From a virus, in IMG/VR virus record IMGVR_UViG_3300020455_000012, positions 1-64,000 of that record: a stretch of DNA of 64,000 bases; one strand, written 5' to 3'. This document shows positions 2,535 through 30,968 of this stretch, in pieces. The notes below the pieces were generated by a model. The model searched no databases and was not told the origin of the DNA. It worked only from the letters and a program-made list of their open reading frames with translations. The first letter of the stretch is position 1; each line of letters opens with the position of its first letter. The position numbers were made by a program, and so were the translations under genes.

Positions 2535-3815
2535 ATGACTAGAAGAGGTGTATGGGACATTCAGGATGTAAGGGATAAACTGCTTGCAGGAGATCCTTGG
2601 GAGCGATATAATAATGTTTTTACTGGTGGACAATCTTATTTTGGAACCTCAGGTCAAAATATAGAAAGTGGTCCTTTTCCAATTGCCGAAGTAACAAAAA
2701 TACCTACTACTGCTGATACTCGTGACTTTACTTCAGTAAGGTCACTCCAAAAAAACAAATTTGCCATCACGAGTAATAATGAATTATTTTCATGGGGATA
2801 TAATGTACAAGGACAATTAGGACAAAACACAGGTTATCCACCTAGTTATGGTGGGTATAAGGATAAATCCGTACCTGTTCAAATTCCTGGTACTACTTGG
2901 GATTCTGTTGCGGGTGGTCCTGGAAGATATGGTTGGTTTGCAACTAAAACTGATGGAACTCTGTGGTTTACGGGAGGAAATAATCAACTTCAACAAGGTA
3001 CTTACCCATCACAAGTAGTGCATCGCTCATCTCCGATTCAAGTTTCTGGTACATCATGGGCAAAAAATGATGGTCAGGCAGGACAATGGAAAATATGCAC
3101 CGACGAGCAAGCTGCTTTTGCCATTAAAACTACTGGAGCACTCTATGGATGGGGAAGGAATGATATTGGAAATTTGGGACAAAACCAAGGTGGGCCCACA
3201 CAATACAAAATTAATCCTGATCAAATAGGAACTGAAACAACATGGCAATATGTTGCAGCGTCGGGATATGATACTAAAAGTAGTACTTGGGCAATTAAAA
3301 CTGATGGAACATTATGGGCATGGGGATGTAATGATCTTGTAGGACCATTAGGATTAAATAATACAACATCAGTTTCATCACCCACTCAAGTAGGGACTGA
3401 TACTACTTGGTCTAGTATTAGCGGTGGTATAGGAGCTCCTTGGGGTAATATGGCGATGGCAATGAAAACTGATGGAAGTGTATGGGCATGGGGAAGAAGT
3501 GATTATGGAGCAAGTGGCACTAATCAGTACTCTTTCGCTTATTCATCACCAAAACAAGTTCCTGGTACTTGGGATATGGCGGTAACATCTGGCACTGTCT
3601 CTCTTCTACACAAACCTGATGGAACTGGATGGATAGTTGGGGATCTTAACGCTGCAAATATGTCGAATCCTGTAGGAGGAAACTTGATGTCATCACCTGT
3701 TTTACTTCCTTCTGCTGTTGATTGGGACAAGGATAAGATGGATATATCTTCTCAGTTCGGTTCTTCTGTCTCCCTTGCTACTATTAGTCCTAACTTGACA
3801 CCCACTCAAGTATAA
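2535..3815 (+). CDS. RCC1-repeat fibre protein 1 (short form)
   Basis: A 426-residue protein made of RCC1-like blades. I count seven repeat cores: NVFTGGQSYFG, LFSWGYNVQGQLG, LWFTGGNNQ, LYGWGRNDIGNLG, LWAWGCND, VWAWGRSDYG and GWIVGDLNAAN. Between cores come SSPTQVGTDTTW-like strands and KTDGTLW turns. Seven matches the blade number of eukaryotic RCC1. The N-terminus starts with GVWDIQDVRDKLLAGD, which resembles the start of the second RCC1 protein and may be a docking peptide. A perfect Shine-Dalgarno (AGGAGG) precedes the ATG. It follows the fibre gene by 12 bases. Inference: a surface-exposed adhesin or receptor-binding protein. A chromatin role is not expected in a phage. Confidence 0.8.
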   Translation: MTRRGVWDIQDVRDKLLAGDPWERYNNVFTGGQSYFGTSGQNIESGPFPIAEVTKIPTTADTRDFTSVRSLQKNKFAITSNNELFSWGYNVQGQLGQNTGYPPSYGGYKDKSVPVQIPGTTWDSVAGGPGRYGWFATKTDGTLWFTGGNNQLQQGTYPSQVVHRSSPIQVSGTSWAKNDGQAGQWKICTDEQAAFAIKTTGALYGWGRNDIGNLGQNQGGPTQYKINPDQIGTETTWQYVAASGYDTKSSTWAIKTDGTLWAWGCNDLVGPLGLNNTTSVSSPTQVGTDTTWSSISGGIGAPWGNMAMAMKTDGSVWAWGRSDYGASGTNQYSFAYSSPKQVPGTWDMAVTSGTVSLLHKPDGTGWIVGDLNAANMSNPVGGNLMSSPVLLPSAVDWDKDKMDISSQFGSSVSLATISPNLTPTQV

Positions 3816-3818
3816 ATA
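3811..3818 (+). promoter_or_regulatory. T4-type late promoter motif
   Basis: A perfect TATAAATA overlaps the stop codon of the preceding RCC1 gene and lies 31 bases before the next ATG, the same spacing as at 18-25. Confidence 0.6.
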
Positions 3819-3849
3819 TAAACAAAGAAAGGATCAAATTTAATCAATT

Positions 3850-4554: not shown

Positions 4555-4557
4555 ATT

Positions 4558-5782: not shown

Positions 5783-5802
5783 GTAAAATTGCTTTTTTTA
5801 TT

Positions 5803-6444
5803 ATGCAACATAATCCATATGACTTGATTATAATTAAAGAAGATGTAATTCCTCAAGGACATATAGAGGAATTGATGCTTTTGACTAATACTAAGGATAC
5901 ACAGCAAGCAACGGTTTTTAAGGAACCAACTAAACCAGATGAAGAAATAGATAAAACAAAAGATGGGGGAAAGGAAGATTTAAGAGTTAGAGATACTTTG
6001 TGGTATCCTATAAATGAGGAACAGTTAGTTAAATTAGAACAGGGTATTGCTCAAGCATATGCTTTACATGTTCGACCAAGGTATAATTGTGAGTTCAAGA
6101 GTTATGAACCTGCACAATTTCTTGGTTATCCAGTAGGAGGACATTATCTGCAGCATATTGATGGAGAACAAATCAATCGTGAAACTGGAGAATGGGAAGA
6201 AGCTTTACCTAGAGATATTTCATTTTTATTTTATTTGAATAGTGAGTTTGGTGGAGGAGAAATTGAGTTTCCTACTTTAGGGTTGACTATTAAACCTAAA
6301 AAAGGTATGATGATAGCATTCCCTTCTTATAAAGAATTTCCTCATAAGGTACATCCTGTTACATGGGGACATAGATATACAATAGTAAGTTGGGTAGGGA
6401 CAAAGGAAAAACTTTATGACACCATTTCAAAAACAAGGGTTTGA
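5803..6444 (+). CDS. 2OG-Fe(II) oxygenase, prolyl 4-hydroxylase-like
   Basis: A 213-residue protein with the double-stranded beta-helix signature of 2-oxoglutarate/Fe(II) dioxygenases. The metal ligands appear as H118-x-D120 (LQHIDGE) and a distal His in EFPHKVHPV (H181). R191 in GHRYTIVSW is the likely 2OG-binding residue. FLFYLNSEFGGGEIEF is the strand expected between them, as in prolyl 4-hydroxylases. Known chemistry of the family is hydroxylation of Pro, Lys or Asp/Asn side chains with 2OG and O2. The substrate is unknown. The location directly after an RCC1 adhesin suggests fibre proteins. It overlaps the next gene by 29 bases. Confidence 0.82.
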   Translation: MQHNPYDLIIIKEDVIPQGHIEELMLLTNTKDTQQATVFKEPTKPDEEIDKTKDGGKEDLRVRDTLWYPINEEQLVKLEQGIAQAYALHVRPRYNCEFKSYEPAQFLGYPVGGHYLQHIDGEQINRETGEWEEALPRDISFLFYLNSEFGGGEIEFPTLGLTIKPKKGMMIAFPSYKEFPHKVHPVTWGHRYTIVSWVGTKEKLYDTISKTRV

Positions 6445-6976
6445 GGTTAGAAAGAAGTATCTACCCTCTTTCTTTTCAACTTATCTTAGAAATTATTTTA
6501 CTTTAAGAGCACAAACTGATCCGAGTTTGAAAGGTGATCCTCAAGCTCCCAAGTCTCATTGTGTATATGGAGATCCTGCATTTGAAACGGTAATGGCTAT
6601 GTCAACTCCTGATATAGGAGAGATGGTGGGTAAGAATTTGATACCACAATATACTTATGCCAGAATATATCTTAATGGTTCTGTGTTGGAAAGGCATAGT
6701 GACCGTCCAGAGTGTCAATACTCTGTAACTTTATCGTTAGGTGGAGAATATAAGCAGCAGTGGCCTATATGGATAAAGGATTATGCTGGTAATGATCATT
6801 GTGTTCCACTTGATGAGGGAGATATGGTGGTCTATCATGGGACAGAGTTAGAACATTGGAGAGATAAATTTGAAGGTACTACACAGTTTCAACTCTTTAT
6901 GCATTATGTTGACGCAGATGGTGAATTTAAGGATAGAGTATTTGATGGCAGACCTAATCTTGGAATACAAAAATGA
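6416..6976 (+). CDS. 2OG-Fe(II) oxygenase-like protein
   Basis: A 186-residue protein. The probable metal triad is H94-S-D96 (LERHSDRPE) and H147 in LEHWRD, with R149 nearby. YSVTLSLGGEY and EGDMVVYHG are the core strands of the fold. It differs from the preceding oxygenase in sequence, so it is not a recent tandem duplicate. It starts inside the preceding gene and overlaps the following one by four bases (ATGA), indicating translational coupling. Specific substrate unknown. Confidence 0.7.
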   Translation: MTPFQKQGFEVRKKYLPSFFSTYLRNYFTLRAQTDPSLKGDPQAPKSHCVYGDPAFETVMAMSTPDIGEMVGKNLIPQYTYARIYLNGSVLERHSDRPECQYSVTLSLGGEYKQQWPIWIKDYAGNDHCVPLDEGDMVVYHGTELEHWRDKFEGTTQFQLFMHYVDADGEFKDRVFDGRPNLGIQK

Positions 6977-8283
6977 AGATGATACCTCAGTTGATTAGAG
7001 AACTTTTTCATGCAGGGGAATATCCTGCTGCAAGAGAATTATCTATCTCATATTTAAGACAAAAGGAAGATGAGGATATAAGATTTCTTCTTGCAGGAAT
7101 CTTTCATGAGGAAAAGAAATATAAGGAAGCATTGGAATGTATAGAGAAAGTTCCTCTCAGTGACATAGTTCTTATTCATAAGGCAAAAATTCTTTATTAC
7201 CTACAAAGAGCCCCAGAAGCAGAGGCAATTCTTAGATCTCTTCCTAAAAAATGGAAAAAGGATGAAGGGTATATTGTAGATTTAGGACTCTACATGACAT
7301 CTCAGGGTAAATTAAATCAGACTAGAAAATTAATAGCTCCGATTGCTGATACTAATAATAGAGCATCATTTAATTATGGATGGCATTTATTAGCAGAAGA
7401 TAAGTTTCAGGAAGGTTATAAGTATATCCGTGCAGGTGCGATAGATGAATTAAGAGTATGGGGTCATGAGTGGATATTGAGAAAGGAATATAATATAGGT
7501 GAACAATATCGTTGGAAACTTGGTGATGAGGTAGATACTATTGCTTTTTATCTGGAAGGAGGTATGGGTGATGGAATGATATTTGTTCGTTATGTAGAAC
7601 ATTTTAAAAAATATTGTAAGACAGTAAAGATATTTACTCCAAAGCAATTGATGCCTTTATTAGGTGCATGTGGGTTTGAAAATCTATATGAACCAGAACA
7701 AATAGTGAAGACTAAGTGGGACAAATATGTTCCTGCAATGTCAGCTCCTTATTTCTTAGGACTCGATGATCCTATGGAGGGTGTGACTTTCCCATATTTT
7801 AAAAAGAGAGCAAATCCTGTTCCAGAAATGAATAGAGTGGCAAATGGTAAGAAGAAGATTTGTATTCGTTGGAAGGGAAGTTCTCAGTTTGAACATGAGC
7901 AGTTCAGGAGTATTCCAATAGAAAAGATGTTGGGACTGGAAAAGTTTGGGCAGTTATTTTCTGTTCAATTGGAAGATAGTGATATACCAAAGAATGCCAA
8001 TGTATGGGATCTTGCTCCAAGTATTAAGACATGGAATGATACCTATGACATATTTGAAGAGTCTGATTTAATTATTACATCTTGCACTTCTACTGCTCAT
8101 TTAGCTGGTGCAATGGGAGCAAGAGTAATTGTTCTTCCTCCTTTATTGGGATATGTCACATGGGAAACAAAGGATATAAGATGGTATCCTGATAATGTTG
8201 TGGTATTGCAGCAAATGGAGTATAATAGTTGGGATAAGACTATAGATAAACTATACGAAATGATGGAGAACTGGGAATGGTAG
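6973..8283 (+). CDS. TPR protein with GT9-like heptosyltransferase domain
   Basis: A 436-residue two-part protein. Residues 1-170 are helical and TPR-like, with paired helices such as GEYPAARELSISYLR and KYKEALECIEKV. Residues 190-436 resemble the GT9 (ADP-heptose transferase) GT-B fold: EGGMGDGMIFVRYV is the Gly-rich N-terminal loop, KICIRWKGSSQFEHEQ resembles the GIRWxG strand, and SCTSTAHLAGAMGARV is the conserved nucleotide-sugar region. Some TPR-fused members of this clan modify proteins. With a phage ADP-heptose pathway 11 kb downstream, a heptosyltransferase acting on protein is a reasonable but unproven guess. It is coupled to both neighbours by overlaps. Confidence 0.72.
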   Translation: MKMIPQLIRELFHAGEYPAARELSISYLRQKEDEDIRFLLAGIFHEEKKYKEALECIEKVPLSDIVLIHKAKILYYLQRAPEAEAILRSLPKKWKKDEGYIVDLGLYMTSQGKLNQTRKLIAPIADTNNRASFNYGWHLLAEDKFQEGYKYIRAGAIDELRVWGHEWILRKEYNIGEQYRWKLGDEVDTIAFYLEGGMGDGMIFVRYVEHFKKYCKTVKIFTPKQLMPLLGACGFENLYEPEQIVKTKWDKYVPAMSAPYFLGLDDPMEGVTFPYFKKRANPVPEMNRVANGKKKICIRWKGSSQFEHEQFRSIPIEKMLGLEKFGQLFSVQLEDSDIPKNANVWDLAPSIKTWNDTYDIFEESDLIITSCTSTAHLAGAMGARVIVLPPLLGYVTWETKDIRWYPDNVVVLQQMEYNSWDKTIDKLYEMMENWEW

Positions 8284-8909
8284 ATCCACGCACCGAAACT
8301 ATAAAATATGACTTATTCCCTACTCATATAATAAGGAGTAAGTGTCCATCCATCACACCAGAGGACAAGCAAGAGATGATGGCTTGTACTGATTGGATGA
8401 TAGAGAATAAGATGTATACTGATAACGACTTAACTCCTAAGTATCAAACCCATACAATATTATTCCGAGATGATGCACCTGCTATTTGGTTGAAATTAAA
8501 AGAAGAATTTTATAGTGCATGTAGAAACTATCTTAAAGCGGTTCCTGAGTTTGTTAGTAACCAACATGCCTTGCAATTTACTGGGTCAAGTGGATGGGCA
8601 TATAAAGGATGGAAAGAATTAAATAAACAAGAAAGTAATCCTTGGCACGAACATATTCCTACATTTTTAACTGGTGTTTATTATTTGCATGATCCTGGTG
8701 ATGGAACCACTGGAGGTACAGAGTTTCATGATCCCCGCAAGGCCGAGGGACAAGCAACTAGAATGCAGGAGATCTTACCAATAGAGAATACGTGGATTAT
8801 ATTTCCTGGTTGGTTGGCTCATCGGAGTATTCAACTTCCATTAGATGAACCAAGATATGTGATTTCAGGTAATATGTTTGTAAAAATAGGTGATGGGTTA
8901 TCTAAATGA
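8277..8909 (+). CDS. 2OG-Fe(II) oxygenase (phage Oxy_5 type)
   Basis: A 210-residue protein of the small phage 2OG oxygenase type. WHEHIPTF supplies H124 and H126, FPGWLAHRS supplies the distal H182, and R193 in EPRYVISGN is the probable 2OG contact. LTGVYYLHDPGDG is the usual strand after the first ligand, and FHDPR is typical of the group. It overlaps the GT9-like gene by seven bases and the next gene by four, so it belongs to the same translational block. Substrate unknown. Confidence 0.78.
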   Translation: MVDPRTETIKYDLFPTHIIRSKCPSITPEDKQEMMACTDWMIENKMYTDNDLTPKYQTHTILFRDDAPAIWLKLKEEFYSACRNYLKAVPEFVSNQHALQFTGSSGWAYKGWKELNKQESNPWHEHIPTFLTGVYYLHDPGDGTTGGTEFHDPRKAEGQATRMQEILPIENTWIIFPGWLAHRSIQLPLDEPRYVISGNMFVKIGDGLSK

Positions 8910-9598
8910 AAAGAGCAATATTTACATTCTATAATCTATCTCTTGATACTGATATTGTAAAACTTCAGGCACAGGTAGTTAATAAACTTAATACAACAGC
9001 AGATTTTCTTCCGTTATGTTCTCAGACACATGGAGAGGAAGTCATTCATCCTGATGCGGTTGATTATGGGTTTACTCAATTATTTGTAGAGCAGAAGTAT
9101 GATACTGTTCTTTTATTAGATGTTGATTGTATTCCTTTGAATGCTTATGCACTTGAATATACGTTTGAGCAAGCAGAGAAAGGAAAGTTAATTGGTAATG
9201 TGCAGAGAGGAATGCATATGGATAATGATGAGCATAATTATGTTGCACCATCAGCATTTTGTTTGACACGTCAGATGTATGAAGATTTTGGAAGAATGAC
9301 AGTGAAACCTGATCATAGGAAGGCTGATACTTGTGGATATTATACCTATGCAGCACAAGAAAGAGGAATAGATGTTGAGATGTACCAACCAACTCACTTC
9401 CAACGTAGACCAAAGGAAGGAGTCTGGGATCTTGGGAAAGGTCGTGGAGAATGGGGTATAGGTACTACATATTCAAATCATCTAGGAGTAGAAATGTTTT
9501 ATCATTTATTCTCTGCTCGTGAAAAAATATATAATGTTTACTTTTATGATAAATGTGAGAAGATTGTAGGAATAAATAGGTTGAAAGGATCCTCTTAG
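8906..9598 (+). CDS. GT-A-like glycosyltransferase
   Basis: A 230-residue protein. VLLLDVDCIPL places a DxD-type metal and nucleotide-sugar motif at D72-V-D74, at the end of a hydrophobic strand as in GT-A enzymes. YVAPSAFCLTRQMYEDFG resembles the acceptor-side region of such enzymes. The family cannot be named more exactly from sequence alone. It is the last gene of the first modification block and ends six bases before an RCC1 gene. Sugar donor and acceptor are unknown. Confidence 0.6.
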   Translation: MKRAIFTFYNLSLDTDIVKLQAQVVNKLNTTADFLPLCSQTHGEEVIHPDAVDYGFTQLFVEQKYDTVLLLDVDCIPLNAYALEYTFEQAEKGKLIGNVQRGMHMDNDEHNYVAPSAFCLTRQMYEDFGRMTVKPDHRKADTCGYYTYAAQERGIDVEMYQPTHFQRRPKEGVWDLGKGRGEWGIGTTYSNHLGVEMFYHLFSAREKIYNVYFYDKCEKIVGINRLKGSS

Positions 9599-9603
9599 GT
9601 ATA

Positions 9604-10854
9604 ATGGCAGAACTTAGACAAAATACTTGGTCATTAAATGCTTGGTATGATCAGGATGTGGCGGGAGATGCGAAATATGAGGCCGCAGGAAAATTATGGA
9701 TGTGGGGGAATAATTATTATGGTCAATTAGGACAAAATAGCACTCTTCCTAATCCAAGTGGACTTTCATCACCAACTCAAGTAGGAACTGATACTACATG
9801 GACTAGGATAGCAAGTTATAGTGACAATAAGACATATGCAATGAAACAGGATGGAAGTTTGTGGACATGGGGATATAATGAAAAAGGACAATTAGGACTT
9901 AATGATGTAGTAGCACGTTCATCACCAACTCAACTACCTGGTACAGGGTGGCAGCTGACTCGTGACTCTTTCTTTGGTAGTGCTATAGTGACTCAGGCAA
10001 TTAAAACAGATGGATCAATGTGGATATGGGGATGGAATGATAGTGGGGAATTAGGTCTTCCAAGAGTTGCACCTTATTGGTATAATATGATAGATAGATC
10101 ATCACCCACTCAACTGCCTGGTACTTGGACTAAGGCTCAAGTTTCCAGTGGTCTGAAGAATGATGGAAGTCTATGGATGTGGGGAGATAATTTTTATGGA
10201 ACATTGGGACAAAACACATCAGCATATGGTTCTCCAGTAGCACTGGGGGCTGCTTCATCTCCAGTTCAAATACCTGGTGACTGGAAGGATTTTTCTAGAT
10301 CTGCTATACCACAGGGTTTCTGTAGTGGAATTAAAACGGATGGAACATTATGGACATGGGGAAAAAATGATGCTGGCCAAGCAGGTAATGGTACTCCTGG
10401 ACAACCTGATTATCATCAACATTGGAGATTATCATCACCAGTTCAAGTAGGATCTGATGCTGATTGGGAGAGGTGTGCTTCTTACACATATAATAAGAAT
10501 GTTTGGCAGAAAACTGATGGATCCATATGGTTTAGTGGTCCAGGACCAACAACTCAGAATTATGGGCTTGGTGGTAGATCTTCACCAACACAAATTCCTG
10601 GTACAATAATACCAGGAATAGATTATATTCTTGCTGGAAACGCTACGTTCTCTTTGGATAGTGCTACTAGTAAGGTATATTTTAACGGTCCTAATTCTTA
10701 TGGAATAATGGGAACAAACCAACCTGCCCCTAGTTCTAGTTCTACTATGACTTATCTTCCTGATGTGTGGGATAAGTTTAAAAATACTGGAATAACCAAA
10801 AACCAACTAGGAATGCAATTTAGTGGATCAGTCGGTGCTATCGAAAAAACTTAA
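9604..10854 (+). CDS. RCC1-repeat fibre protein 3 (short form)
   Basis: A 416-residue RCC1-like protein with seven repeat cores: LWMWGNNYYGQLGQN, LWTWGYNEKGQLGLN, MWIWGWNDSGELGLP, LWMWGDNFYGTLGQN, LWTWGKNDAGQAGNG, IWFSGPGPTTQ and VYFNGPNSYGIMG. The N-terminus reads NTWSLNAWYDQDVAGD, a variant of the W-x-x-x-x-x-Y-D peptide seen in RCC1 proteins 1 and 2. It is sandwiched between the first modification block (six bases upstream) and the sulfotransferase (24 bases downstream). This placement is the strongest positional link between propellers and modifying enzymes. Confidence 0.82.
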   Translation: MAELRQNTWSLNAWYDQDVAGDAKYEAAGKLWMWGNNYYGQLGQNSTLPNPSGLSSPTQVGTDTTWTRIASYSDNKTYAMKQDGSLWTWGYNEKGQLGLNDVVARSSPTQLPGTGWQLTRDSFFGSAIVTQAIKTDGSMWIWGWNDSGELGLPRVAPYWYNMIDRSSPTQLPGTWTKAQVSSGLKNDGSLWMWGDNFYGTLGQNTSAYGSPVALGAASSPVQIPGDWKDFSRSAIPQGFCSGIKTDGTLWTWGKNDAGQAGNGTPGQPDYHQHWRLSSPVQVGSDADWERCASYTYNKNVWQKTDGSIWFSGPGPTTQNYGLGGRSSPTQIPGTIIPGIDYILAGNATFSLDSATSKVYFNGPNSYGIMGTNQPAPSSSSTMTYLPDVWDKFKNTGITKNQLGMQFSGSVGAIEKT

Positions 10855-10861
10855 CTAAATA
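10855..10861 (+). promoter_or_regulatory. Late promoter-like CTAAATA
   Basis: CTAAATA directly follows the RCC1 stop codon and lies 17 bases before the sulfotransferase ATG. It is a variant of the T4-type late motif and may drive the 10.9-21 kb operon. Confidence 0.4.
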
Positions 10862-10878
10862 GTCAAAATTATTTTATT

Positions 10879-11712
10879 ATGCAACAACTTCATTATTGTC
10901 TAGGTCTTCCTAGAACGTGCTCATCAGTCATCATGAACATACTGAATGAGAATCCAAATATATTTACAACAGGCACATGTCCGATGCCTTATTTTATTGA
11001 TGCGTGTATGAATAGATCTAATGACGTATCAGAGTTTATAGCACTAGATAAAGACGTATTAAATAAATCATATATCAACTTTCTACGTCAGGGAATGAAA
11101 GGATGGTTTGAGGCAATGACTGATAAACCCATTGTCTTCTCCAAGTCAAGATTATGGTCAGAGTGGCTTCCTCATACTTTTACATTTGACCCCAACTCTA
11201 AGTATCTGGTAATACTGAGAGACCTAAGAGATATCATCTGTTCATTTGATTCTCTTCTATGGAAGTATCCCCAAGTAGGTTATGGATCCAGAGATAACCC
11301 ATTCTATCAAGAATCATTTGAGCATAGGATGGAGACTTATTGTACAGACACACAATCTCTTTTAGGTAGACCATTGCAAGTCCTTCCACATGTATTAGAA
11401 GTAGCACAGAGAAATCCAGGTAGTTTTTTCATATGTAAACATGAGTATTTTAATGAGCAACCCAGAGAAACATTACAACAGATATATCAATGGTTAGGAG
11501 AACCAAACTTTGAGCATGATCTTGACAATATTCCTGAACCCGATTATAAAGAGAATGATACAACTTATAGATCTCTTGTTTACCATAAGACAGGAACTAA
11601 ATTAAAGAAGTTAGAACCACGGTGGCCAAAGATTATGACAGAGGAGCAATCTAAGGAAGTGATTGCAAACAACCAGTGGTATTATAAAACTTTTTATCCT
11701 GAAGCATTATGA
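10879..11712 (+). CDS. Sulfotransferase
   Basis: A 277-residue protein of the PAPS-dependent sulfotransferase fold. GLPRTCSSV at residues 9-17 is the 5'-phosphosulfate loop. YLVILRDLRDIICSF around residues 109-123 is the 3'-phosphate-binding strand and helix, with R114 in the usual place. The family transfers sulfate from PAPS to hydroxyls of sugars, proteins or small molecules. It heads the large modification operon directly after an RCC1 gene and overlaps the next glycosyltransferase by four bases, so sulfation of a glycan on a fibre protein or host surface is plausible. The substrate cannot be read from the sequence. Confidence 0.75.
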   Translation: MQQLHYCLGLPRTCSSVIMNILNENPNIFTTGTCPMPYFIDACMNRSNDVSEFIALDKDVLNKSYINFLRQGMKGWFEAMTDKPIVFSKSRLWSEWLPHTFTFDPNSKYLVILRDLRDIICSFDSLLWKYPQVGYGSRDNPFYQESFEHRMETYCTDTQSLLGRPLQVLPHVLEVAQRNPGSFFICKHEYFNEQPRETLQQIYQWLGEPNFEHDLDNIPEPDYKENDTTYRSLVYHKTGTKLKKLEPRWPKIMTEEQSKEVIANNQWYYKTFYPEAL

Positions 11713-13036: not shown

Positions 13037-13037
13037 T

Positions 13038-19149: not shown

Positions 19150-19157
19150 GGACTATT

Positions 19158-21788: not shown

Positions 21789-21802
21789 ATCTTTTTCATT
21801 AG

Positions 21803-21831
21803 ATTATAACAGAGATAAATAAGAAAAGCAA
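21803..21831 (-). promoter_or_regulatory. Sigma70-like promoter for hldD
   Basis: On the minus strand TTGCTT, 17 bases and TATAAT end 14 bases before the epimerase ATG. It overlaps the plus-strand late motif at 21814, so the two directions may compete. Confidence 0.55.
21814..21822 (+). promoter_or_regulatory. Late promoter-like GATAAATAA
   Basis: Variant of the late motif 31 bases before the RCC1 ATG at 21854, overlapping the spacer of the opposite-strand hldD promoter. Confidence 0.5.
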
Positions 21832-21853
21832 GTAGTATTATGGTTGTCGTAAT

Positions 21854-23668
21854 ATGCCATCACGAAAAGCCCAATTAGTTTCACCCTTATCTGGAGAGTA
21901 TCTTAGTGTTCCAGGAATAAGTGTAACAGGAGTTATCACTGCCACAGGTGGAATAACTGGAGTAGTAGGGGTTGCTCAATCAATTGCTGATGGAGCTGAT
22001 TTGGATCTGGGAACGGTTACTGGAACTACTTTTGTTGGAGATTCTATTGGTACATATAGAGCAGCAGGACTCACTAATACAGGTGCAGGTACATCTAATT
22101 TAAATGTAGGAGTGGTTACTGCTACAAGTATTTCAGGAGTGGTTACAGGAAATATTACAGGTACAGCAAGTAGTATAATCAGTGGAGCAAATTTAACAGT
22201 TGGTGTTGCTACTGCTGTAACATGGTTAGGGGATGGATCAGGACTTACAGGTGCTGGTTCAAGTGCATTTATAGGACAGGCAGTTACTGCTCAAGCAGGT
22301 ACTACTACAATTGATTTAAGTAGTGGTAATATAATTAATTTTACTCATAGTAATAATACAACAGTTGCTTTTGCAAATACTAGCACGGCAAGTAGAATTA
22401 CTTTTATAAGAAATGCAACAGCAAATACTATTACTTGGCCTGATAGGATTAAATGGAATAATGGATCCACACCTACGTTATTTGAAAAAAACGGTGGATA
22501 TCAAGTTTTTCGTTTAACGACTGTAGATGCGGGAACCACCTATCAGGCATGGGAGGAGTCTGCATCTCCAGATGGATATGGGATGTTTGTGTATGGATAT
22601 AGTAATAGTGGTAGGTTAGGACTTAATGATAATGTCTATCGTTCATCACCAACTCAAGTAGGAACTAGTTTTGATTTCACAGGTTTGTGGCAGGTTACTT
22701 TTGGTGGTAATTCGAGTACCTTTCAAAAAAATACCAATGATCTTTTTGTGGCAGGATATAATGGTACTGGACAATTAGGACAAAATGATAGAACGAGTTA
22801 TTCATCACCAAGACAAATACCTGGTGTATGGACTCAAGCGACACTTGGGGAAAATAGCATGAGGGGACACAAAGGTGGAAGTACATATGTATGGGGATCT
22901 AATAATTATGGACAATTAGGACTTAATGATAGAAATAATCGTTCATCACCAGTTCTAATACCTGGAAGTTGGGATTCATCTGCAGGTAAAGATTGTATAG
23001 GAAATAGCACTACTTTTGCAATTAAAACTAATGGAACATTATGGTCATGGGGAAGAAATTTTCTTGGAATTTTAGGACAAAATCAAGGAACTCCATCTCC
23101 TGGTTCTCCTGGATCAAAGTCATCACCAACTCAAGTAGGAACTGATACTACATGGCTTCAAATGCTTCATGCGGATACCACTGCAACAGCAGCGATCAAA
23201 AACAATGGAACACTATGGGCATGGGGATATGCTAATCCTGGAATGTTAGGACAAAATAATGTAATAGATCGTTCATCACCAACTCAAGTAGGAACTGATA
23301 CTAATTGGAGTAGATCATTTATGTTGAATAATTGCTGTGTAGCAAGCAAAACAAATGGAACATTATGGGCATGGGGAAATAATGGATCTGGAAGATTGGG
23401 ACAAAATAATCTAACAAATTATTCATCACCAACTCAAATAGGAACTGATACTACATGGACTCATGGGAGTTTGGAAGGTAGTTGGAATGGTGGTGGTTTT
23501 TGTAAGAAAACTGATGGAACATTATGGTGTTGGGGATTGAATAGTTCTGGACAATTAGGACTTAATAGTACAGTAAATTACTCATCACCAGTTCAAGTAA
23601 CTGCATATAGCGATGCTTGGCTGAAATATGGAAGAATGGGTGGTTCTGCTAATGCCATTATTAAGTAA
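21854..23668 (+). CDS. RCC1-repeat fibre protein 4 (shaft plus propeller)
   Basis: A 604-residue two-part protein. Residues 1-135 form a fibre shaft with units such as SVTGVITATG, GNITGTASSI and GDGSGLTGAG. Residues 136-235 are a beta-rich adaptor also present in the next two proteins (TTIDLSSGNIINF, ITFIRNATANTITWP). From about 238 come seven RCC1 cores: MFVYGYSNSGRLGLN, LFVAGYNGTGQLGQN, TYVWGSNNYGQLGLN, LWSWGRNFLGILGQN, LWAWGYANPGMLGQN, LWAWGNNGSGRLGQN and LWCWGLNSSGQLGLN. It begins with the KAQLVSPL start shared by the next two. Inference: a receptor-binding tip on a shaft. Confidence 0.83.
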   Translation: MPSRKAQLVSPLSGEYLSVPGISVTGVITATGGITGVVGVAQSIADGADLDLGTVTGTTFVGDSIGTYRAAGLTNTGAGTSNLNVGVVTATSISGVVTGNITGTASSIISGANLTVGVATAVTWLGDGSGLTGAGSSAFIGQAVTAQAGTTTIDLSSGNIINFTHSNNTTVAFANTSTASRITFIRNATANTITWPDRIKWNNGSTPTLFEKNGGYQVFRLTTVDAGTTYQAWEESASPDGYGMFVYGYSNSGRLGLNDNVYRSSPTQVGTSFDFTGLWQVTFGGNSSTFQKNTNDLFVAGYNGTGQLGQNDRTSYSSPRQIPGVWTQATLGENSMRGHKGGSTYVWGSNNYGQLGLNDRNNRSSPVLIPGSWDSSAGKDCIGNSTTFAIKTNGTLWSWGRNFLGILGQNQGTPSPGSPGSKSSPTQVGTDTTWLQMLHADTTATAAIKNNGTLWAWGYANPGMLGQNNVIDRSSPTQVGTDTNWSRSFMLNNCCVASKTNGTLWAWGNNGSGRLGQNNLTNYSSPTQIGTDTTWTHGSLEGSWNGGGFCKKTDGTLWCWGLNSSGQLGLNSTVNYSSPVQVTAYSDAWLKYGRMGGSANAIIK

Positions 23669-23672
23669 ATAC

Positions 23673-23680
23673 CTAAATAA
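23673..23680 (+). promoter_or_regulatory. Late promoter-like CTAAATAA
   Basis: Variant late motif 12 bases before the ATG at 23693, in the short gap between two RCC1 genes. Confidence 0.4.
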
Positions 23681-23692
23681 CTAAAAAAAGAT

Positions 23693-25846
23693 ATGAGTCA
23701 GACTAAGGCACAATTAGTAGCACCGATTGGAGTAGTAACCGCACCTGGACTTACTGTTACAGGAGTTACTACGGCGACTTCTTTTGTGGGTAGTGTGACG
23801 GGTACAGCTAGTAGTATTGTTGCAGGAAGTGATATAATTGTAGGAGTAATGAGTGCAACAGGGTTTGCAGGTGATTTTACAGGAACAGCAACAGGAATTA
23901 AAACATCTTCAAATTTGAATGTTGGTGTAGTTACTGCCTTAAGTTTTGTTGGTAATGTAACGGGAAATCTAACAGGCTCAGCAGGTGGATTGTCTGGTGG
24001 TGGGGATATTCATGTAGGAGTAGTTACTTCTGTTGCGATGTCAGGGGATGGTAGTAATTTAACAGGAATAGCAGCATCTGCTTTTACTTCTCAAACTGTT
24101 CCTACAACATCATTTTCAATAAATGTTACCTCTCCTGCTGGTGGAAACTATACACTATCTGGTACTGATAGAAATGGTGTAGTCAGTGGGAGTAGCGATC
24201 CCGCAGTTACTGTTGAGATAGGTGATACACTTAATTTTGTTGTGGATGCTTCAGGACATCCATTTTATATTAGAGTATCAGATGGTGGTGCAAATGTAAG
24301 CACTCCTGCAGCGACCAATCAAGGTGCTCAAAGTGGTACTGTTTCTTGGACACCTAACACTGCTGGTACTTATTATTATCAGTGTGGAAATCATCCTGGT
24401 ATGCTTGGAACCATCACTGTAACTGCTACCACCACAATAGATTTAAGTAAGGGTAATAATATACTTTTTAATCAAACTGCAAATACAACTATTTCCTTTG
24501 CAAATACATCAACTACTGAAGCTATTAGTATCCTTAGAAAAGATGGAACAGGGACTATAACATGGCCCTCTAGTATTAAATGGAATGGTAGTTCTCCTCC
24601 TATACTGGCTTCATCAGATCAATCTAATGATTGGAATTTGATTAAATTATTAACTCGTGATTCAGGTCTAACATGGAGAGGATGGGAGGAAGCAAAGAAT
24701 GAAGGAACTTTTAATGCATTCGTTTGGGGAGGAAATTATTATGGAGGATTAGGACTTAATGAAGCATTACCAGGTGCTTATAAATCATCACCAACTCAAC
24801 TTCCTGGTGTTACTTGGGCAAAAGGTATGGCAGGTGGAAGCGGCGGTTTCTTTTATGGAAGTGGTGCAATTAAAACTGATGGAACATTATGGGCGATGGG
24901 ATTTAATTATCAAGGAGGATTGGGATTAAATGATACAACAGAATATTCATCACCAACTCAAGTGGGAACGGATACTACTTGGGATCAAGTTATAACCACT
25001 TGGAAGGCTAAGGCAGCAATTAAAACTGATGGAACAATGTGGGCATGGGGATCTGATGTATATGGAGCATTAGCACAAAATAATAATGTAAAATATTCAT
25101 CACCAGTTCAAATACCTGGCACATGGAGTGAGAGGGTTGATGGTTTTAGCACCTATGGAATTAAAACTAATGGAACATTATGGTCATGGGGAGGTCAGTA
25201 TAAAGGATCATTTGGTCGGAATACAGGTAATATTACGTATGTTTCATCACCAGCCCAAATCGGAGCTGATACCACATGGGCTACTGTAACAGCACTGGTC
25301 TATGGTGGTGCTGCAGTCAAAACTGATGGAACATTATGGACATGGGGATCTGGTAGTGATACTAATTTTAGAGGAGCATTAGGACAGAATAATCTATCAA
25401 ATTATTCATCACCAACTCAAGTAGGAACCGATACCACATGGGGAAAGACAAATGCTACTCATTCTAGCATTATTAATTATGCTATGTTTAATATTAAAAC
25501 TAATGGAACATTATGGTCATGGGGAGAGAATATGAATGGAGTCTTAGGGCATAATGAGCATCCATCAAGTAGTGTTGGTGGTACTGACTATTCATCACCA
25601 ACTCAAGTAGGAACTAGTAGCGATTGGAGTAAACTAGCTGGTTCAGGTTATCACATGAATGTACTTAAAACTGATGGAACACTGTGGGTACTAGGGGGAT
25701 GGCGAGGTGGAGGAGAATTAGGACTGAATACTATAAGTCCAAATAGAATTTCATCCCCAACTCAACTACCTGGCATATGGGATGTAATGGATAATAATGT
25801 TATAATGGGGGGAAGTGGAACCATGATGAGAAAACTAACGAATTGA
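23693..25846 (+). CDS. RCC1-repeat fibre protein 5 with an inserted cupredoxin-like domain
   Basis: A 717-residue protein: shaft (residues 1-130), a plastocyanin/azurin-like insert (about 140-245), the shared beta adaptor (246-345) and seven RCC1 cores (AFVWGGNYYGGLGLN, LWAMGFNYQGGLGLN, MWAWGSDVYGALAQN, LWSWGGQYKGSFGRN, LWTWGSGSDTN, LWSWGENMNGVLGHN, LWVLGGWRGGGELGLN). The insert contains GDTLNFVVDASGHPFYI and YYYQCGNHPGMLGTI. H189, C231, H234 and M237 occupy the four positions of type 1 copper ligands. The two flanking RCC1 proteins lack this insert. Its role is unknown: copper binding, electron transfer, or only the fold as a binding module. Confidence 0.83.
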   Translation: MSQTKAQLVAPIGVVTAPGLTVTGVTTATSFVGSVTGTASSIVAGSDIIVGVMSATGFAGDFTGTATGIKTSSNLNVGVVTALSFVGNVTGNLTGSAGGLSGGGDIHVGVVTSVAMSGDGSNLTGIAASAFTSQTVPTTSFSINVTSPAGGNYTLSGTDRNGVVSGSSDPAVTVEIGDTLNFVVDASGHPFYIRVSDGGANVSTPAATNQGAQSGTVSWTPNTAGTYYYQCGNHPGMLGTITVTATTTIDLSKGNNILFNQTANTTISFANTSTTEAISILRKDGTGTITWPSSIKWNGSSPPILASSDQSNDWNLIKLLTRDSGLTWRGWEEAKNEGTFNAFVWGGNYYGGLGLNEALPGAYKSSPTQLPGVTWAKGMAGGSGGFFYGSGAIKTDGTLWAMGFNYQGGLGLNDTTEYSSPTQVGTDTTWDQVITTWKAKAAIKTDGTMWAWGSDVYGALAQNNNVKYSSPVQIPGTWSERVDGFSTYGIKTNGTLWSWGGQYKGSFGRNTGNITYVSSPAQIGADTTWATVTALVYGGAAVKTDGTLWTWGSGSDTNFRGALGQNNLSNYSSPTQVGTDTTWGKTNATHSSIINYAMFNIKTNGTLWSWGENMNGVLGHNEHPSSSVGGTDYSSPTQVGTSSDWSKLAGSGYHMNVLKTDGTLWVLGGWRGGGELGLNTISPNRISSPTQLPGIWDVMDNNVIMGGSGTMMRKLTN

Positions 25847-25861
25847 ATCTTAAGTGATTTA

Positions 25862-25869
25862 TATAAATA
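25862..25869 (+). promoter_or_regulatory. T4-type late promoter motif
   Basis: Perfect TATAAATA, 14 bases before the ATG at 25884. Confidence 0.6.
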
Positions 25870-25883
25870 ACTAAAAAAGTAAT

Positions 25884-27722
25884 ATGAGTCAGGAAAAAGC
25901 CCAATTAATTGCTCCTATTGAAAACATTACAGTTACGGGAGTAGTAGCAACAGGAGTTATTACTGCGACTTCTTTTGAGGGGAATGTGACTGGAAGTGCA
26001 AGTAGTATTATTCAAGGAGCAAATATAGTTGCAGGAATAGTAACAGCAGGTCTTAATACCACTACTGCTTTCTCTGGTAATTTGACAGGTAATGCAGGTG
26101 GTCTTTCTGGTGATCCTGATATACATGTAGGAGTATTGAGTGCTACCAGTTTTGTAGGAAATGTAACAGGTATTGTCACGGGTAGAGCAACAGGATTATC
26201 TAATACAGGTGCAGGTACATCTAATTTAAATATAGGAACTTTTACTGCAACTACTTTTCATGGGGATGGATCAGGTTTAACTGGTGTTGCAGGTGCAGCA
26301 TTCTCACAACAATCTATTGGTATCACATCGGCAACTACAGCAATAGATTTAAGTAATGGTAATGTAATACATGCTAATCAAAGTGCTGATACTACAGTTT
26401 CTTTTGCTAATACTGCTGGTAGTAATGAAATATATTTCATAAGAGAGAAGGATGCCACAACCACTGCCAGAACCATTACATGGCCTACTACTATTGAATG
26501 GGATGGTGGATTTGAACCTACTCTAACAACAATTAATCATTCTGGGGAGGCTCAAATATTTAAATTATGTACTACTACAAATGGTGAAACGTGGTACGGG
26601 AAGGAGGTTTATAAAAATCAGGGTGGATTCAAATTTTTTAGATGGGGACAGAGTGATTATGGGCAATTAGGTCTTAATGATAGAACAAGTCTTTCATCAC
26701 CAGTTCAGGTAGGGGATTCTAGTGCATGGAGCAGTGTGACTGGGAATGGAACTCAGCAACTGGCAACTAAAGTTGATGGAACATTATGGACATGGGGAGC
26801 TAGTTCGGTAGGAGGATTAGGACTTAATGATCAAGTACATCGTTCATCACCCACTCAAGTAGGAACTGATACTACATGGAATAGAACATTCCCTAATGGA
26901 TCATATTCTGGTGCTGCTACTAAAACGGATGGAACATTATGGGTATGGGGAAATAATTTGTATGGAGTATTGGGACAAAATGGAGGACAACCAACTTCTC
27001 AATCCTCACCAGTTCAACTACCTGGTACTTGGTCTGCATTGAGTAATAGTGGAGGTGGTATAGCTACAATGGGACTTAAAACTAATGGAACATTATGGTC
27101 ATGGGGGTATAATACTTATGGAGGATTAGGACTTAATGATAGAACAAGTCGTTCATCACCAACTCAAGTAGGAACTGATACTACATGGAAAGAGGGAATA
27201 GGTACAGGTTTTGGTTTCTTTGCTGCTGTTAAGACTAATGGAACCCTATGGACTTCTGGATATAATACAACTGGACAATTAGGACTAAATCAAAGTTATG
27301 TTCCTAGTAATGCTAATACTAGGTCATCACCAACTCAAGTAGGGACTGATACTACTTGGAATAAAGTAGATTCGTCAGGTTCTAGTTCTATTGCAACCAA
27401 AACTGATGGAACATTATGGTCATGGGGATATAATGCTAGTAGTGGACAATTAGGACTTAATGATATTGTAAGTCGTTCATCACCAACTCAAGTAGGAACT
27501 CAGACTACATGGGAATCTCTACTACACGTAAATTCTGGTTATATTGCAACCAAAACTGATGGATCATTATGGTCATGGGGAATTAATTCTCATGGACAAT
27601 TGGGACATAATCAACCACATAATACAAAGATTTCATCACCAACTCAAATTACTGGTACTTGGGACATTTCTACAATAAATGCGATGTATAGTAATTATGG
27701 TGGAAATGCTTTTCAGTCTTAA
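25884..27722 (+). CDS. RCC1-repeat fibre protein 6 (shaft plus propeller)
   Basis: A 612-residue protein with the same plan as the two before it. The start MSQEKAQLIAPIENI parallels MSQTKAQLVAPIGVV of protein 5. Shaft units (GVITATSFEGNVTGSASSI, GDGSGLTGVAG) run to about residue 145, then the adaptor to about 245. Seven cores follow: FFRWGQSDYGQLGLN, LWTWGASSVGGLGLN, LWVWGNNLYGVLGQN, LWSWGYNTYGGLGLN, LWTSGYNTTGQLGLN, LWSWGYNASSGQLGLN and LWSWGINSHGQLGHN. Its repeats are among the most regular of the seven proteins, and the DNA of the blades is also near-identical. Confidence 0.83.
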   Translation: MSQEKAQLIAPIENITVTGVVATGVITATSFEGNVTGSASSIIQGANIVAGIVTAGLNTTTAFSGNLTGNAGGLSGDPDIHVGVLSATSFVGNVTGIVTGRATGLSNTGAGTSNLNIGTFTATTFHGDGSGLTGVAGAAFSQQSIGITSATTAIDLSNGNVIHANQSADTTVSFANTAGSNEIYFIREKDATTTARTITWPTTIEWDGGFEPTLTTINHSGEAQIFKLCTTTNGETWYGKEVYKNQGGFKFFRWGQSDYGQLGLNDRTSLSSPVQVGDSSAWSSVTGNGTQQLATKVDGTLWTWGASSVGGLGLNDQVHRSSPTQVGTDTTWNRTFPNGSYSGAATKTDGTLWVWGNNLYGVLGQNGGQPTSQSSPVQLPGTWSALSNSGGGIATMGLKTNGTLWSWGYNTYGGLGLNDRTSRSSPTQVGTDTTWKEGIGTGFGFFAAVKTNGTLWTSGYNTTGQLGLNQSYVPSNANTRSSPTQVGTDTTWNKVDSSGSSSIATKTDGTLWSWGYNASSGQLGLNDIVSRSSPTQVGTQTTWESLLHVNSGYIATKTDGSLWSWGINSHGQLGHNQPHNTKISSPTQITGTWDISTINAMYSNYGGNAFQS

Positions 27723-27732
27723 TCTGATCTGA

Positions 27733-27740
27733 TATAAATA
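27733..27740 (+). promoter_or_regulatory. T4-type late promoter motif
   Basis: Perfect TATAAATA, 26 bases before the ATG at 27767. Confidence 0.65.
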
Positions 27741-27766
27741 CATAAAAAGTAGTGTAGTAGTGAAGA

Positions 27767-29569
27767 ATGGCAACACTTAATTTTCCAGATAATCCCACGA
27801 CAGGTGACGTTTATACGGATAGTAACTCTGGCTTTACTTATGAGTGGAATGGAACAGTATGGATAAGCACAGATCCTTCTACTGCATCTAATATTAGAGA
27901 GATTGATGATATTTCAAGTGATTTTGATGGTTCAGATACAACCTTTACGTTAAAAGTAGCAGGTGTCAACGTAGAACCTGCAAATGTTCAACAACTCATC
28001 ATCAGTGTTGGTGGTGTGATGCAAAATGCTGGAGATGACTTTACTCTCTCTGGTTCAACACTTACATTCACTACTGCTCCTCAATCGGGATTATCATTCT
28101 TTGGTACTCTTTTAGGAACTGCTTTATCACTTAATACTATTCCTGATGGAAGTGTAGGTTCTGCATCTCTTAAGACAGAAGACTTTACAATTGGTGGTTC
28201 AGGTAATACAGTCACAATTCCTGGTAACCTCACAGTTCAGGGAACTGAAACTATTATTAATACTGAACGACTTGATATTCAGGACAAGACTGTTGGTATT
28301 GCCTCTACGAATGCTCCAACATCTACATCTCAAGATGATGCTGGTATTATCATCTATGGACAAACTCATGTAAATATTCTTTATGATAGAGATAAAGCAG
28401 CAGTAGGTATCAATACTGCTTTGAGTGTTAGTGGTGTTGTAACTGCTACAAGAGCTCAGATTGGTACAGGAGTAACGATTAATAATACTGGTATAGATGC
28501 AGGAAATGCGGGTATTGTAACTGCAGGAACGATTACCGCACCTGCTGATTTAATTATTTCTGCTCCTAATGCTGCAATTAGACCTCGCACAGATCAGTTT
28601 ACTGTTAAAAATGCGGCTAATAGTGAAACATTGTTTTATGCTGATGCTAATAGTGCATTTGCTGCTTTTTATGATAATACCAAACGGTTTGAAACGGCCA
28701 GTGATGATGGAGGTGGTGGTGTTATAGTTACAGGTAAGATTGTTGGTACTGCTGTTACTGCTAATGATTCAACTAAACCATCTCTTGCTTTACATACAGG
28801 GACAACACTACGTGCTGATTTAAGTGCCAACTCTGGTATATGCAGTATTAGAAGTTATGCTAACAATCCATTTGCCATAAACGTTGGTGGTTCTGGAGAA
28901 ACTGAAGCACTTCGCATCGATTCAAGTGGTCGCTTGATGGTAGGAACAACTATTGAAGGAAATGATGATGCTGATGAATTAACACTTAACGGTACAAGAA
29001 CTGGTCTTACGATTCGTTCAGCAAGTAATGATTATGGAAATATATTTTTCTCTGATGCAACTTCTGGCACTAGTGAATATGCAGGAGCAGTTCAATATTA
29101 TCATAATGATGACTCGTTGATATTTAAAACCAGTTCAACAAATAGATTTACCATCACATCAAATGGTGGATTCTCCTTTGATAATGCTCAGTTAGTAGAG
29201 AGAGTAGAGATAACTGCTGGTAAGTTAAGTAATAATACTGATATTGATCTTGCAGATGGTATGGTTCATTACTTTTCTACTACTGAGACTGGTACATCCA
29301 CCCCAAACATCAGAATTGATGGTAGTAATACCTTAAACAATGCAATGGATACTGGTGATGTCATCTCTGTTACTCTTATAACTACTGCAGCCGCTGCTGC
29401 TTATAGTGCTGCATTAAATATTGATGGTAGTAGTGCAACAGTAGAGTGGAGTGGGGCAGCGGCTCCAAGTGCTGGTGGAGCAAGTGGTCTCGATGTTTAT
29501 GCGTATACGATTATAAAAACAGGTAGTGGAGCATATAAGGTATTAGGAAACTACACCAACTTTGATTAA
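27767..29569 (+). CDS. Tail-fibre / virion structural protein
   Basis: A 600-residue protein of a type common in marine T4-like phages. The start LNFPDNPTTGDVYTDSNSG followed by YEWNGTVWI is a small beta domain. Residues 45-120 (FDGSDTTFTLKVAGVNV ... FTLSGSTLTFTTAP) form a second domain that recurs near residue 3745 of the 4247-residue protein. The middle (IPGNLTVQGTETIINT, then QDKTVGIAST) is the usual shaft entry of cyanophage fibres. The C-terminal part contains RIDSSGRLMVGTT, a common shaft motif of phage and adhesin fibres. No RCC1 repeat. Followed by an RCC1 gene after 13 bases with a strong Shine-Dalgarno. Confidence 0.78.
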   Translation: MATLNFPDNPTTGDVYTDSNSGFTYEWNGTVWISTDPSTASNIREIDDISSDFDGSDTTFTLKVAGVNVEPANVQQLIISVGGVMQNAGDDFTLSGSTLTFTTAPQSGLSFFGTLLGTALSLNTIPDGSVGSASLKTEDFTIGGSGNTVTIPGNLTVQGTETIINTERLDIQDKTVGIASTNAPTSTSQDDAGIIIYGQTHVNILYDRDKAAVGINTALSVSGVVTATRAQIGTGVTINNTGIDAGNAGIVTAGTITAPADLIISAPNAAIRPRTDQFTVKNAANSETLFYADANSAFAAFYDNTKRFETASDDGGGGVIVTGKIVGTAVTANDSTKPSLALHTGTTLRADLSANSGICSIRSYANNPFAINVGGSGETEALRIDSSGRLMVGTTIEGNDDADELTLNGTRTGLTIRSASNDYGNIFFSDATSGTSEYAGAVQYYHNDDSLIFKTSSTNRFTITSNGGFSFDNAQLVERVEITAGKLSNNTDIDLADGMVHYFSTTETGTSTPNIRIDGSNTLNNAMDTGDVISVTLITTAAAAAYSAALNIDGSSATVEWSGAAAPSAGGASGLDVYAYTIIKTGSGAYKVLGNYTNFD

Positions 29570-29582
29570 GGAGGACTAAACA

Positions 29583-30968
29583 ATGAGTAACATATGGCAT
29601 ACAAAAGAAGAGCCCTTCTTAGGATTGCAAGGAATGGGAGGAGGTGCGAGTTCTCTCATGTGGACAAGTAGTGGAACGACAAAATATAATCTATTTACAT
29701 GGGGATCTAATGCTTATGGAGAATTAGGTTTAAATCAGGGATGGAGACCAGCAGACAATCCACTACCTTCTCAACCATCTAAATCCTCACCAACTCAAAT
29801 TCCTGGTGATTGGTTTGCCGTATATGGAGGGAATGGTTATGAGAAAAGGTGGCAAATGGGAGCAAAAGATGAGGAAGATACGTTATGGACATGGGGCAAT
29901 AATGGTAATGGAGTATTAGGACACAATGAAATGGATGATCAACCTCATAACGCAAATAAATCATCACCTACCCAAATTCCAGGAAGTTGGAAATTTGCGG
30001 GGGCGGGTAACGAGTCTGCTCTAGGACTTAAAGATGATGGACACTTATATGGATGGGGTGCTGGTTCCTATGGAATATATGGCGGTGGTCATCCTCAACC
30101 TACCGTATACAATGTAAGTTCTCCTTGTCAACTTGGTAGTCATTTTGATCAGTCTGGAAGAAATTGGGTAGCAGATACAAAAAAATGGAGTATTAACCGT
30201 ACCGCTTACTTTTTGATTAATGATTTAGATGAATTATGGTGTTGGGGAAGTAATAGTAAAGGAGCATTAGGGCAAAATGAGTCATTCAATCAAATGTATT
30301 CATCACCAGTTCAAATACCTGGAAGTTGGTATTCAGTTGATTGTCACTCACGAGGTAATAGTGTTTCTGCAATTAAAACTGATGGAAACTTATATTATTG
30401 GGGTTCTAGTGCTGAGTATATTCCATGGCCCACCTCAGCTCAGGATCGTTCATCACCAACATTAATGCCTGGTGGACCTTATATTCGTTCTTCGATGAGA
30501 AGTGGTAAGAATGGTAATATGATTGTAAGAAATCCTACTGCAGGAGTAGCAGGGAGTCCAACCAGTACTATGTGGTATATGGGTCAGGCAGAATATGGTC
30601 TTAAAGGAAATAATGATACAGCAGGTTCAGCACCCAATGGTTATGGTACTATATCATCACCTATTCAAATAGGTGGCCCAACGAGTACGGGTTGGAGTAG
30701 GTATGTTGAAGTAAACCATTTTAATGCTGCATGTGCTATTAAATATGATGGGACAATGTGGACATGGGGAAGCAATAATTATGGACAATTAGGACATTCT
30801 CAATCAGGATCTCCCACCCAACCTTGGTTTCCAGGTCCAATGAGACTGGGTGTGTCTAGATCATCACCAACTCAAATACCAGGTACATGGGGTAATGTGG
30901 CCGCAGATGATACCAAAGAGTATATTCTCAAAAGGAGGATGGGTTTCAGTGCGTTACAAAAACAATAG
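29583..30968 (+). CDS. RCC1-repeat fibre protein 7
   Basis: A 461-residue RCC1-like protein without a shaft. The seven cores are LFTWGSNAYGELGLN, LWTWGNNGNGVLGHN, LYGWGAGSYGIYG, LWCWGSNSKGALGQN, LYYWGSSAEYIPWP, MWYMGQAEYGLKGNN and MWTWGSNNYGQLGHS. Its N-terminus (MSNIWHTKEEPFLGLQGMGG) differs from the other short forms, so it may attach elsewhere, perhaps to the fibre protein encoded just upstream. AGGAGG precedes the start. Its inter-blade loops are longer than in the others. It is the last gene of the fibre region and is followed by a strong terminator. Confidence 0.82.
   Translation: MSNIWHTKEEPFLGLQGMGGGASSLMWTSSGTTKYNLFTWGSNAYGELGLNQGWRPADNPLPSQPSKSSPTQIPGDWFAVYGGNGYEKRWQMGAKDEEDTLWTWGNNGNGVLGHNEMDDQPHNANKSSPTQIPGSWKFAGAGNESALGLKDDGHLYGWGAGSYGIYGGGHPQPTVYNVSSPCQLGSHFDQSGRNWVADTKKWSINRTAYFLINDLDELWCWGSNSKGALGQNESFNQMYSSPVQIPGSWYSVDCHSRGNSVSAIKTDGNLYYWGSSAEYIPWPTSAQDRSSPTLMPGGPYIRSSMRSGKNGNMIVRNPTAGVAGSPTSTMWYMGQAEYGLKGNNDTAGSAPNGYGTISSPIQIGGPTSTGWSRYVEVNHFNAACAIKYDGTMWTWGSNNYGQLGHSQSGSPTQPWFPGPMRLGVSRSSPTQIPGTWGNVAADDTKEYILKRRMGFSALQKQ

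Follow-up and report, generated by a model that had tools for sequence, protein, structure and literature searches.

Seven RCC1 proteins are encoded in the window, that is, in the whole 64.0 kb stretch analysed here out of the 70.8 kb viral record IMGVR_UViG_3300020455_000012. They are quite probably virion adhesins in which a conserved mount carries an exchangeable head folded as a closed seven-bladed ring. A role as phage adhesins, proposed in the original prediction, appears well supported by comparative evidence, and it seems likely because several lines of this evidence are independent: the contrast between mounts and rings, the one-faced variation of the rings, the alternative domains found at the tips and the fusion of RCC1 repeats to T7-type fibres. 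In slots D to F the mount would combine a repeat shaft with a beta domain, and in slots A to C and G it would be a slot-specific peptide of 27 to 37 residues. The heads would be replaced whole, the mount being kept and the ring lying at the identity floor of the family; the alternative way for a head to change would be diversification by substitution. From these comparisons we infer that the proteins sit on the virion of the window phage, where the rings would bind a host molecule and might affect host range.

Genomic context and organization of the RCC1 genes

The window has a G+C content of 36% and encodes T4-type baseplate proteins (gp25-like at 47366, gp6-like at 47767 and a wedge subunit at 62620). 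The closest relatives of the gp6-like product are from Prochlorococcus and Synechococcus phages, with ~58% identity to cyanophages P-TIM68 and S-SM2. The phage is a cyanophage-like T4-type marine myovirus, but this identity is too low to name a host. Another baseplate wedge protein, encoded at 49840-62583, is 4247 aa long and contains a YHYH domain.

The seven RCC1 genes (Table 1) had been predicted to lie in a single fibre region. The genes are real, yet they do not form one array: they fall into two clusters ~11 kb apart with enzyme genes between them. Slots A to C (2.5-10.9 kb) are interleaved with 2OG-oxygenase, sulfotransferase and glycosyltransferase genes, slot C lying within the enzyme stretch, and slots D to G (21.9-31.0 kb) are found among fibres. 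The expected division into three shafted and four short proteins is borne out by their sequences. Slots D and E match PHROG tail-fibre families outside the ring and the shaft of slot F is recognized by its sequence repeats, while slots A, B, C and G have a mount only.

Table 1 RCC1 slots and associated features of the window
Feature	Coordinates	Strand	Remarks
Tail-fibre-like protein upstream of slot A, 821 aa	57..2522	+	Matches to PHROG tail fibre and virion structural families
Slot A, short RCC1 protein, 426 aa	2535..3815	+	27-residue mount RRGVWDIQDVRDKLLAGDPW; ring 2616-3812, seven blades
Slot B, short RCC1 protein, 406 aa	4558..5778	+	37-residue mount GVWDIDQVYDKQMQGGIW; ring 4669-5775; AlphaFold model
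Enzyme genes interleaved with RCC1	5803..21788	.	Six 2OG-Fe(II) oxygenases, sulfotransferase 10879, glycosyltransferases 11709 and 13655, sugar kinase, epimerase 20964(-)
Slot C, short RCC1 protein, 416 aa	9604..10854	+	30-residue mount NTWSLNAWYDQDVAGD; ring 9694-10851
Optional D-G block	21789..31143	+	Missing in L095, L182 and L183
Slot D, shafted RCC1 fibre, 604 aa	21854..23668	+	Repeat shaft aa 1-138, beta domain aa 139-240, ring 22583-23665
Slot E, shafted RCC1 fibre, 717 aa	23693..25846	+	Shaft, cupredoxin-like insert aa 132-246, ring 24716-25843
Slot F, shafted RCC1 fibre, 612 aa	25884..27722	+	Ring 26634-27719
Tail-fibre protein without RCC1, between slots F and G	27767..29569	+	PHROG tail fibre matches
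Slot G, short RCC1 protein, 461 aa	29583..30968	+	36-residue mount PFLGLQGMGGGASSLM; ring 29691-30965

Two further features of the fibres were observed. The insert in the shaft of slot E (24086-24430) resembles cupredoxins (plastocyanin/azurin) and has a C-x2-H-x2-M motif like a copper site, its Pfam match being below the cut-off; the related locus L088 lacks this insert, as an indel of ~108 aa. In the fibre without RCC1 between slots F and G, the middle part (aa 321-480) is 35-50% identical to its L088 counterpart versus 72-100% at the ends, and it is possible that this divergent middle is another variable binding region.

Repeat number and predicted fold

All seven ORFs match the Pfam RCC1 family (PF00415; 63.8-141.3 bits, against a curated cut-off of 21.7) and the RCC1-like-domain model PF25390 (E from 4e-33 to 1e-66), the strict 150-bit cut-off of the latter being passed by three of the seven. 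Reading of the sequences gives seven repeat cores in every protein, spaced by 47-64 residues. The ORF list, the Pfam matches and this reading agree with the predicted seven genes of seven repeats each (49 cores). Only 11 copies of the strict motif WGx(N/D)...GQLG are present, and Pfam detects 38 repeats genome-wide, 32 of them above the cut-off; many blades are thus degenerate, and the figure of 49 counts cores, not perfect motifs. The strict motif scan undercounts blades and was replaced by core reading and a repeat profile; as the cores of the window served to build this profile, the number of seven per protein is circular for the window, though not for other loci.

Among 78 IMG/VR viral loci, a few of which are copies of the window phage, seven repeats are found in 170 of the 186 complete RCC1 ORFs and 14, 21, 20, 17 or 6 in the others, in a sample biased toward seven by a query that itself had seven repeats. 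Such a predominance, together with ORFs of 14 or 21 repeats, indicates that seven is not due to chance, and the 14- and 21-repeat ORFs argue for closed rings despite the bias of the query. The proteins with 20 and 17 detected repeats belong to one phage present in three contigs (L062, 6243-14925), in which degenerate blades may have been missed since these counts are not multiples of seven. Another locus (L086, 1310-9330) has seven complete RCC1 genes in tandem, preceded by a fragment, with short and mostly proline-rich N-termini.

Two of the seven proteins, the short slot B (4558) and the shafted slot D (21854), were modelled with AlphaFold2 from alignments of environmental relatives. The slot B model is a confident ring (mean pLDDT 80, most blades >90); that of slot D has a closed ring mostly above 90 and, as a monomer, a shaft below 50. 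The best Foldseek matches in the PDB are UVR8, HERC2 and RCC1, those of slot B being UVR8 and HERC2. TM-scores to the target reach 0.86, with an rmsd of ~2.5, the value of 0.86 being that of the slot D model against HERC2 RLD2. The slot D model has three C-terminal strands (576-603) and a lone strand (244-248) ahead of the first full set, an order that fits the usual closure of RCC1, in which an N-terminal strand completes the last blade. The closed seven-bladed propellers that had been expected are therefore predicted for both of the proteins modelled. No function can be transferred from such a predicted fold match, be it the Ran nucleotide exchange or the nucleosome binding of eukaryotic RCC1.

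Conservation of the mounts and replacement of the rings

Syntenic relatives of the window were retrieved using the flanking genes as bait, and the slots were defined by these same flanking genes. The median identity to the relatives is 79% for the flanking genes versus 43% for the rings (p=7e-21). Across genomes, the N-terminal mounts are 62.5% identical within a slot and 27% between slots, whereas the rings are 44.0% identical within and 43.1% between slots; a slot can consequently be recognized from its mount but scarcely from its ring. The slightly higher ring identity within slots, to which a few close pairs belong, is significant by permutation, so the heads are not fully shuffled. The contrast can be followed in single proteins: slot A shares 93% of its mount and 38% of its ring with L173, slot D shares 83% of its N-terminal part and 38% of its ring with L088, and the identity profile drops sharply at the mount-ring junction or just before it. 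By sequence comparison, the RCC1 proteins have the organization expected of tail fibres, a conserved virion-attachment N-terminus followed by a divergent C-terminal head. When the adapters alone were compared to isolate phages, slot B matched only AG-345-E08 and slot G gave nothing convincing.

Some relatives carry other domains in place of a ring. The slot G adapter is kept in L018 with a Gly_rich_2 domain, and in L195 an adapter similar to the slot G mount is joined to DUF7483. L198 (1-5910) encodes, at the same genome position, a 1970-aa protein in which a part resembling the fibre at 27767 is joined to 14 stretches of FG-GAP repeats, a propeller family other than RCC1. The whole D-G block is missing in three relatives (Table 1), where the orthologues of 20964(-) and 31144 adjoin. 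An assembly artefact is unlikely to explain these empty sites, as the three contigs come from different samples and have a common junction with its own intergenic sequence.

One could alternatively imagine that the rings coat the tail or capsid and weakly bind common surface polymers, helping retention near cells without conferring host specificity, in which case their variation would track changing glycans or a host immunity-like pressure. The short, shaftless mounts of four of the seven proteins would suit such stickers, as would the number of copies, which is high for specific receptors, and the RCC1 proteins of the W70 virion, which are likewise short and shaftless (PMC11370258). We nevertheless find this explanation unlikely, given that slots D to F are fibres and that the replacement of whole heads is better matched by receptor switching. 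Moreover, in the Pseudomonas phages PollyC and SeaP the ring ends the gp17-position fibre, where the usual receptor-binding fibre is found. As for the set of seven rings, it may serve one host or several. The wider host range suggested in the original prediction is one possibility, and just as possible are multiple binders of a single host, alternatives used singly or general surface stickers.

Variation on one face of the ring

In a repeat profile of 155 proteins, the most variable columns correspond to loops L1 (after LWxWG) and L3 (before AIKTDG), variation being lower in loops L2, ahead of the conserved W, and L4 (TDGT). Consecutive loops of an up-and-down blade lie on alternating sides, which places L1 and L3 on one face. 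Close relatives provide the same picture: the residues of L1 and L3 differ by 41% versus 16% for L2 and L4 in a first pair of genomes (p=3.5e-12), and by 59% versus 27% in a second pair (p=4e-8). Three RCC1 genes of the first pair have dN/dS values of 0.73-0.81, compared to 0.08-0.24 for three flanking genes on the enzyme side; the value of the adjacent fibre gene at 27767 is 0.66. The first 37 residues of slot G do not differ at all between close relatives. Synonymous change is likewise raised in L1 and L3, so that block import or alignment error may contribute to the contrast between the faces. Among the large window ORFs searched, no reverse transcriptase match indicative of a diversity-generating system was found; beyond the window, the final 6.8 kb of the record contain only large ORFs, which continue or come after the baseplate genes.

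According to the strand topology, from which this orientation is derived rather than from coordinates, the chain enters and exits on the L4 side, which would turn the variable face away from the mount. Both chain ends would then be on the side of the conserved loops L2 and L4, and the opposite face (L1 and L3), the most divergent among relatives, would be the likely surface of contact with the host. A variable face could also be that of an enzyme which cuts or modifies surface polysaccharides; some phage tail propellers, such as endosialidases, are enzymes (PMC4901313) and active sites are common in propellers. Yet the family searches gave no enzyme match, the conserved residues of the repeats are structural (W, G, SSPxQ, KTDGT) and no conserved catalytic set was seen on the variable face, all of which makes enzymatic heads very improbable.

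Enzyme genes around slots A to C

The window has eight 2OG-Fe(II) oxygenase genes (5803-19149 and 44774-47139), six of which are interleaved with slots A to C or adjoin them. Slots A to C are absent along with several enzyme genes in L105/L097, which represent one lineage, and similar enzyme genes recur beside RCC1 genes in S-SRM01 and AG-345-E08. The link between the enzymes and the RCC1 proteins is an association, a lead based on gene neighbourhood and on this one lineage of joint absence; the hydroxylase, sulfotransferase and glycosyltransferase may modify the rings or the host surface. Adjoining genes at 19553-21788 encode a pfkB-type kinase, a phosphoheptose-isomerase-like protein and an epimerase, which suggests a putative phage-borne metabolism of heptose or another sugar. 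The idea of a chaperone encoded between slots A and B was abandoned: S-SRM01 has a DUF4376 gene there, and the window gene at 3850 has no Pfam match.

RCC1 rings in other phages and comparison with known systems

RCC1 folds had been described in the original prediction as known mainly from eukaryotes and some bacteria, a view that proved too narrow. Besides the 78 environmental loci surveyed above, a search with a query written from the alignment consensus found RCC1 relatives in 63 isolate phage records; RCC1 is also present in three PHROG families (4219, 7220 and 16766) and in at least 574 encoding stretches of environmental viral contigs, and RCC1 proteins occur in virions (PMC11370258, PMC5259590).

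Synechococcus phage S-SRM01 (NC_070963, gp334-gp349) has part of the window's cassette after its distal tail fibre gene, in the same order: distal tail fibre, RCC1, small gene, RCC1, TPR protein, 2OG oxygenase, RCC1 and sulfotransferase. Unlike the window, it has three RCC1 genes in this stretch, gp335, gp337 and gp344, no shafted RCC1 fibres, and DUF4376 as the small gene; its cassette RCC1 genes are not discussed in the S-SRM01 paper. AG-345-E08, obtained from a plate onto which extracellular particles were sorted (PMC6122165), is syntenic nearly gene by gene to window positions 57-21019, with rings 40-45% identical.

The T7-like Pseudomonas phages PollyC and SeaP1-4 (Ppr_SeaP1-4) have RCC1 repeats at the end of the fibre encoded in the gp17 position, that of the usual receptor-binding fibre of T7-like phages. 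The gene lies between internal virion protein and holin/terminase genes, and its product matches the T7 fibre N-terminal domain slightly below the Pfam cut-off. The terminases of these isolates are 99-100% identical and the N-terminal parts of the fibres 80-100% identical over 360 residues, past which the SeaP1/4 and SeaP2/3 types share mostly 20-47% per 60-residue block. As in the window, the N-terminus of the fibre is conserved and the RCC1 ring is replaced, here between near-identical phages, but there is one gp17-position fibre gene instead of seven. The annotations of these fibres go no further than tail fiber assembly, hypothetical or RCC1 protein, and no experiments on them were found in the open-access literature.

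The RCC1-like-domain proteins of known structure (UVR8, the HERC2 RLDs and human RCC1) have seven repeats, a closed ring and an N-terminal strand closure, as predicted for the window rings. The latter differ from them in their ~20% identity, their position on phage shafts or short adapters and their mostly one-faced variation. The phage proteins named 'regulator of chromosome condensation' in phAPEC6, W70, GAP32 and 121Q belong to the same fold family and are also often multi-copy, as in 121Q and PBECO4 (PMC5259590), but they are more distant in sequence, published as DNA-condensing and not reported to have fibre shafts. A suggested ordering of DNA by the eleven RCC1-like proteins of phAPEC6 (PMC7247149) and a suspected role in DNA encapsulation for the three found by mass spectrometry in the W70 virion (PMC11370258) would imply rings that bind and order the phage DNA in the capsid; GAP32 gp1 was also detected in virions by mass spectrometry, according to PMC5259590. 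The homology to chromatin-binding eukaryotic RCC1 and the mildly basic rings of the relatives (median pI 9.2, median net charge ~+6) would agree with this function. For the window proteins it seems extremely improbable, since RCC1 is found fused to the shafts of tail fibres and to the N-terminus of a T7-type fibre, the net charge of the window rings ranges from -4.1 to +6.7, change is one-faced and rings are replaced next to conserved neighbours, and four RCC1 genes are lost jointly as a fibre block.

If the rings are instead adhesin heads, as we favor, the RCC1 ring could be a general binding scaffold of phages, a rigid seven-bladed disc mounted by a constant face and exposing ~14 loops on a variable one, swapped among long fibres, short mounts and unrelated phages, and most phage genes called 'regulator of chromosome condensation' would encode adhesins; for this generalization the chances appear evenly balanced. 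It offers a testable function for a frequent and, on present evidence, misread annotation. As binding heads, RCC1 genes would mark host recognition in uncultured cyanophages and jumbo coliphages, and would provide a constant-scaffold binder whose variable face is readable from sequence.

Receptor-binding proteins with a propeller have been established for phi11 and PRD1, and phiKZ is suspected to have one (PMC4901313). Like the window proteins, phi11 Gp45, PRD1 P2 and phiKZ gp131C bear a propeller on a receptor-binding or peripheral baseplate protein, although those of phi11 and PRD1 P2 are five-bladed and that of phiKZ, which is seven-bladed, is not described as RCC1; a multi-copy slot system is not described for any of them in PMC4901313. 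In the open-access literature searched, where virion RCC1 proteins are interpreted as DNA-condensing, no paper was found to present RCC1 rings as the heads of phage fibres. Phage RCC1 proteins are already known, as are receptor-binding proteins with propellers, and the new element would be the proposed use of RCC1 rings as modular fibre heads.
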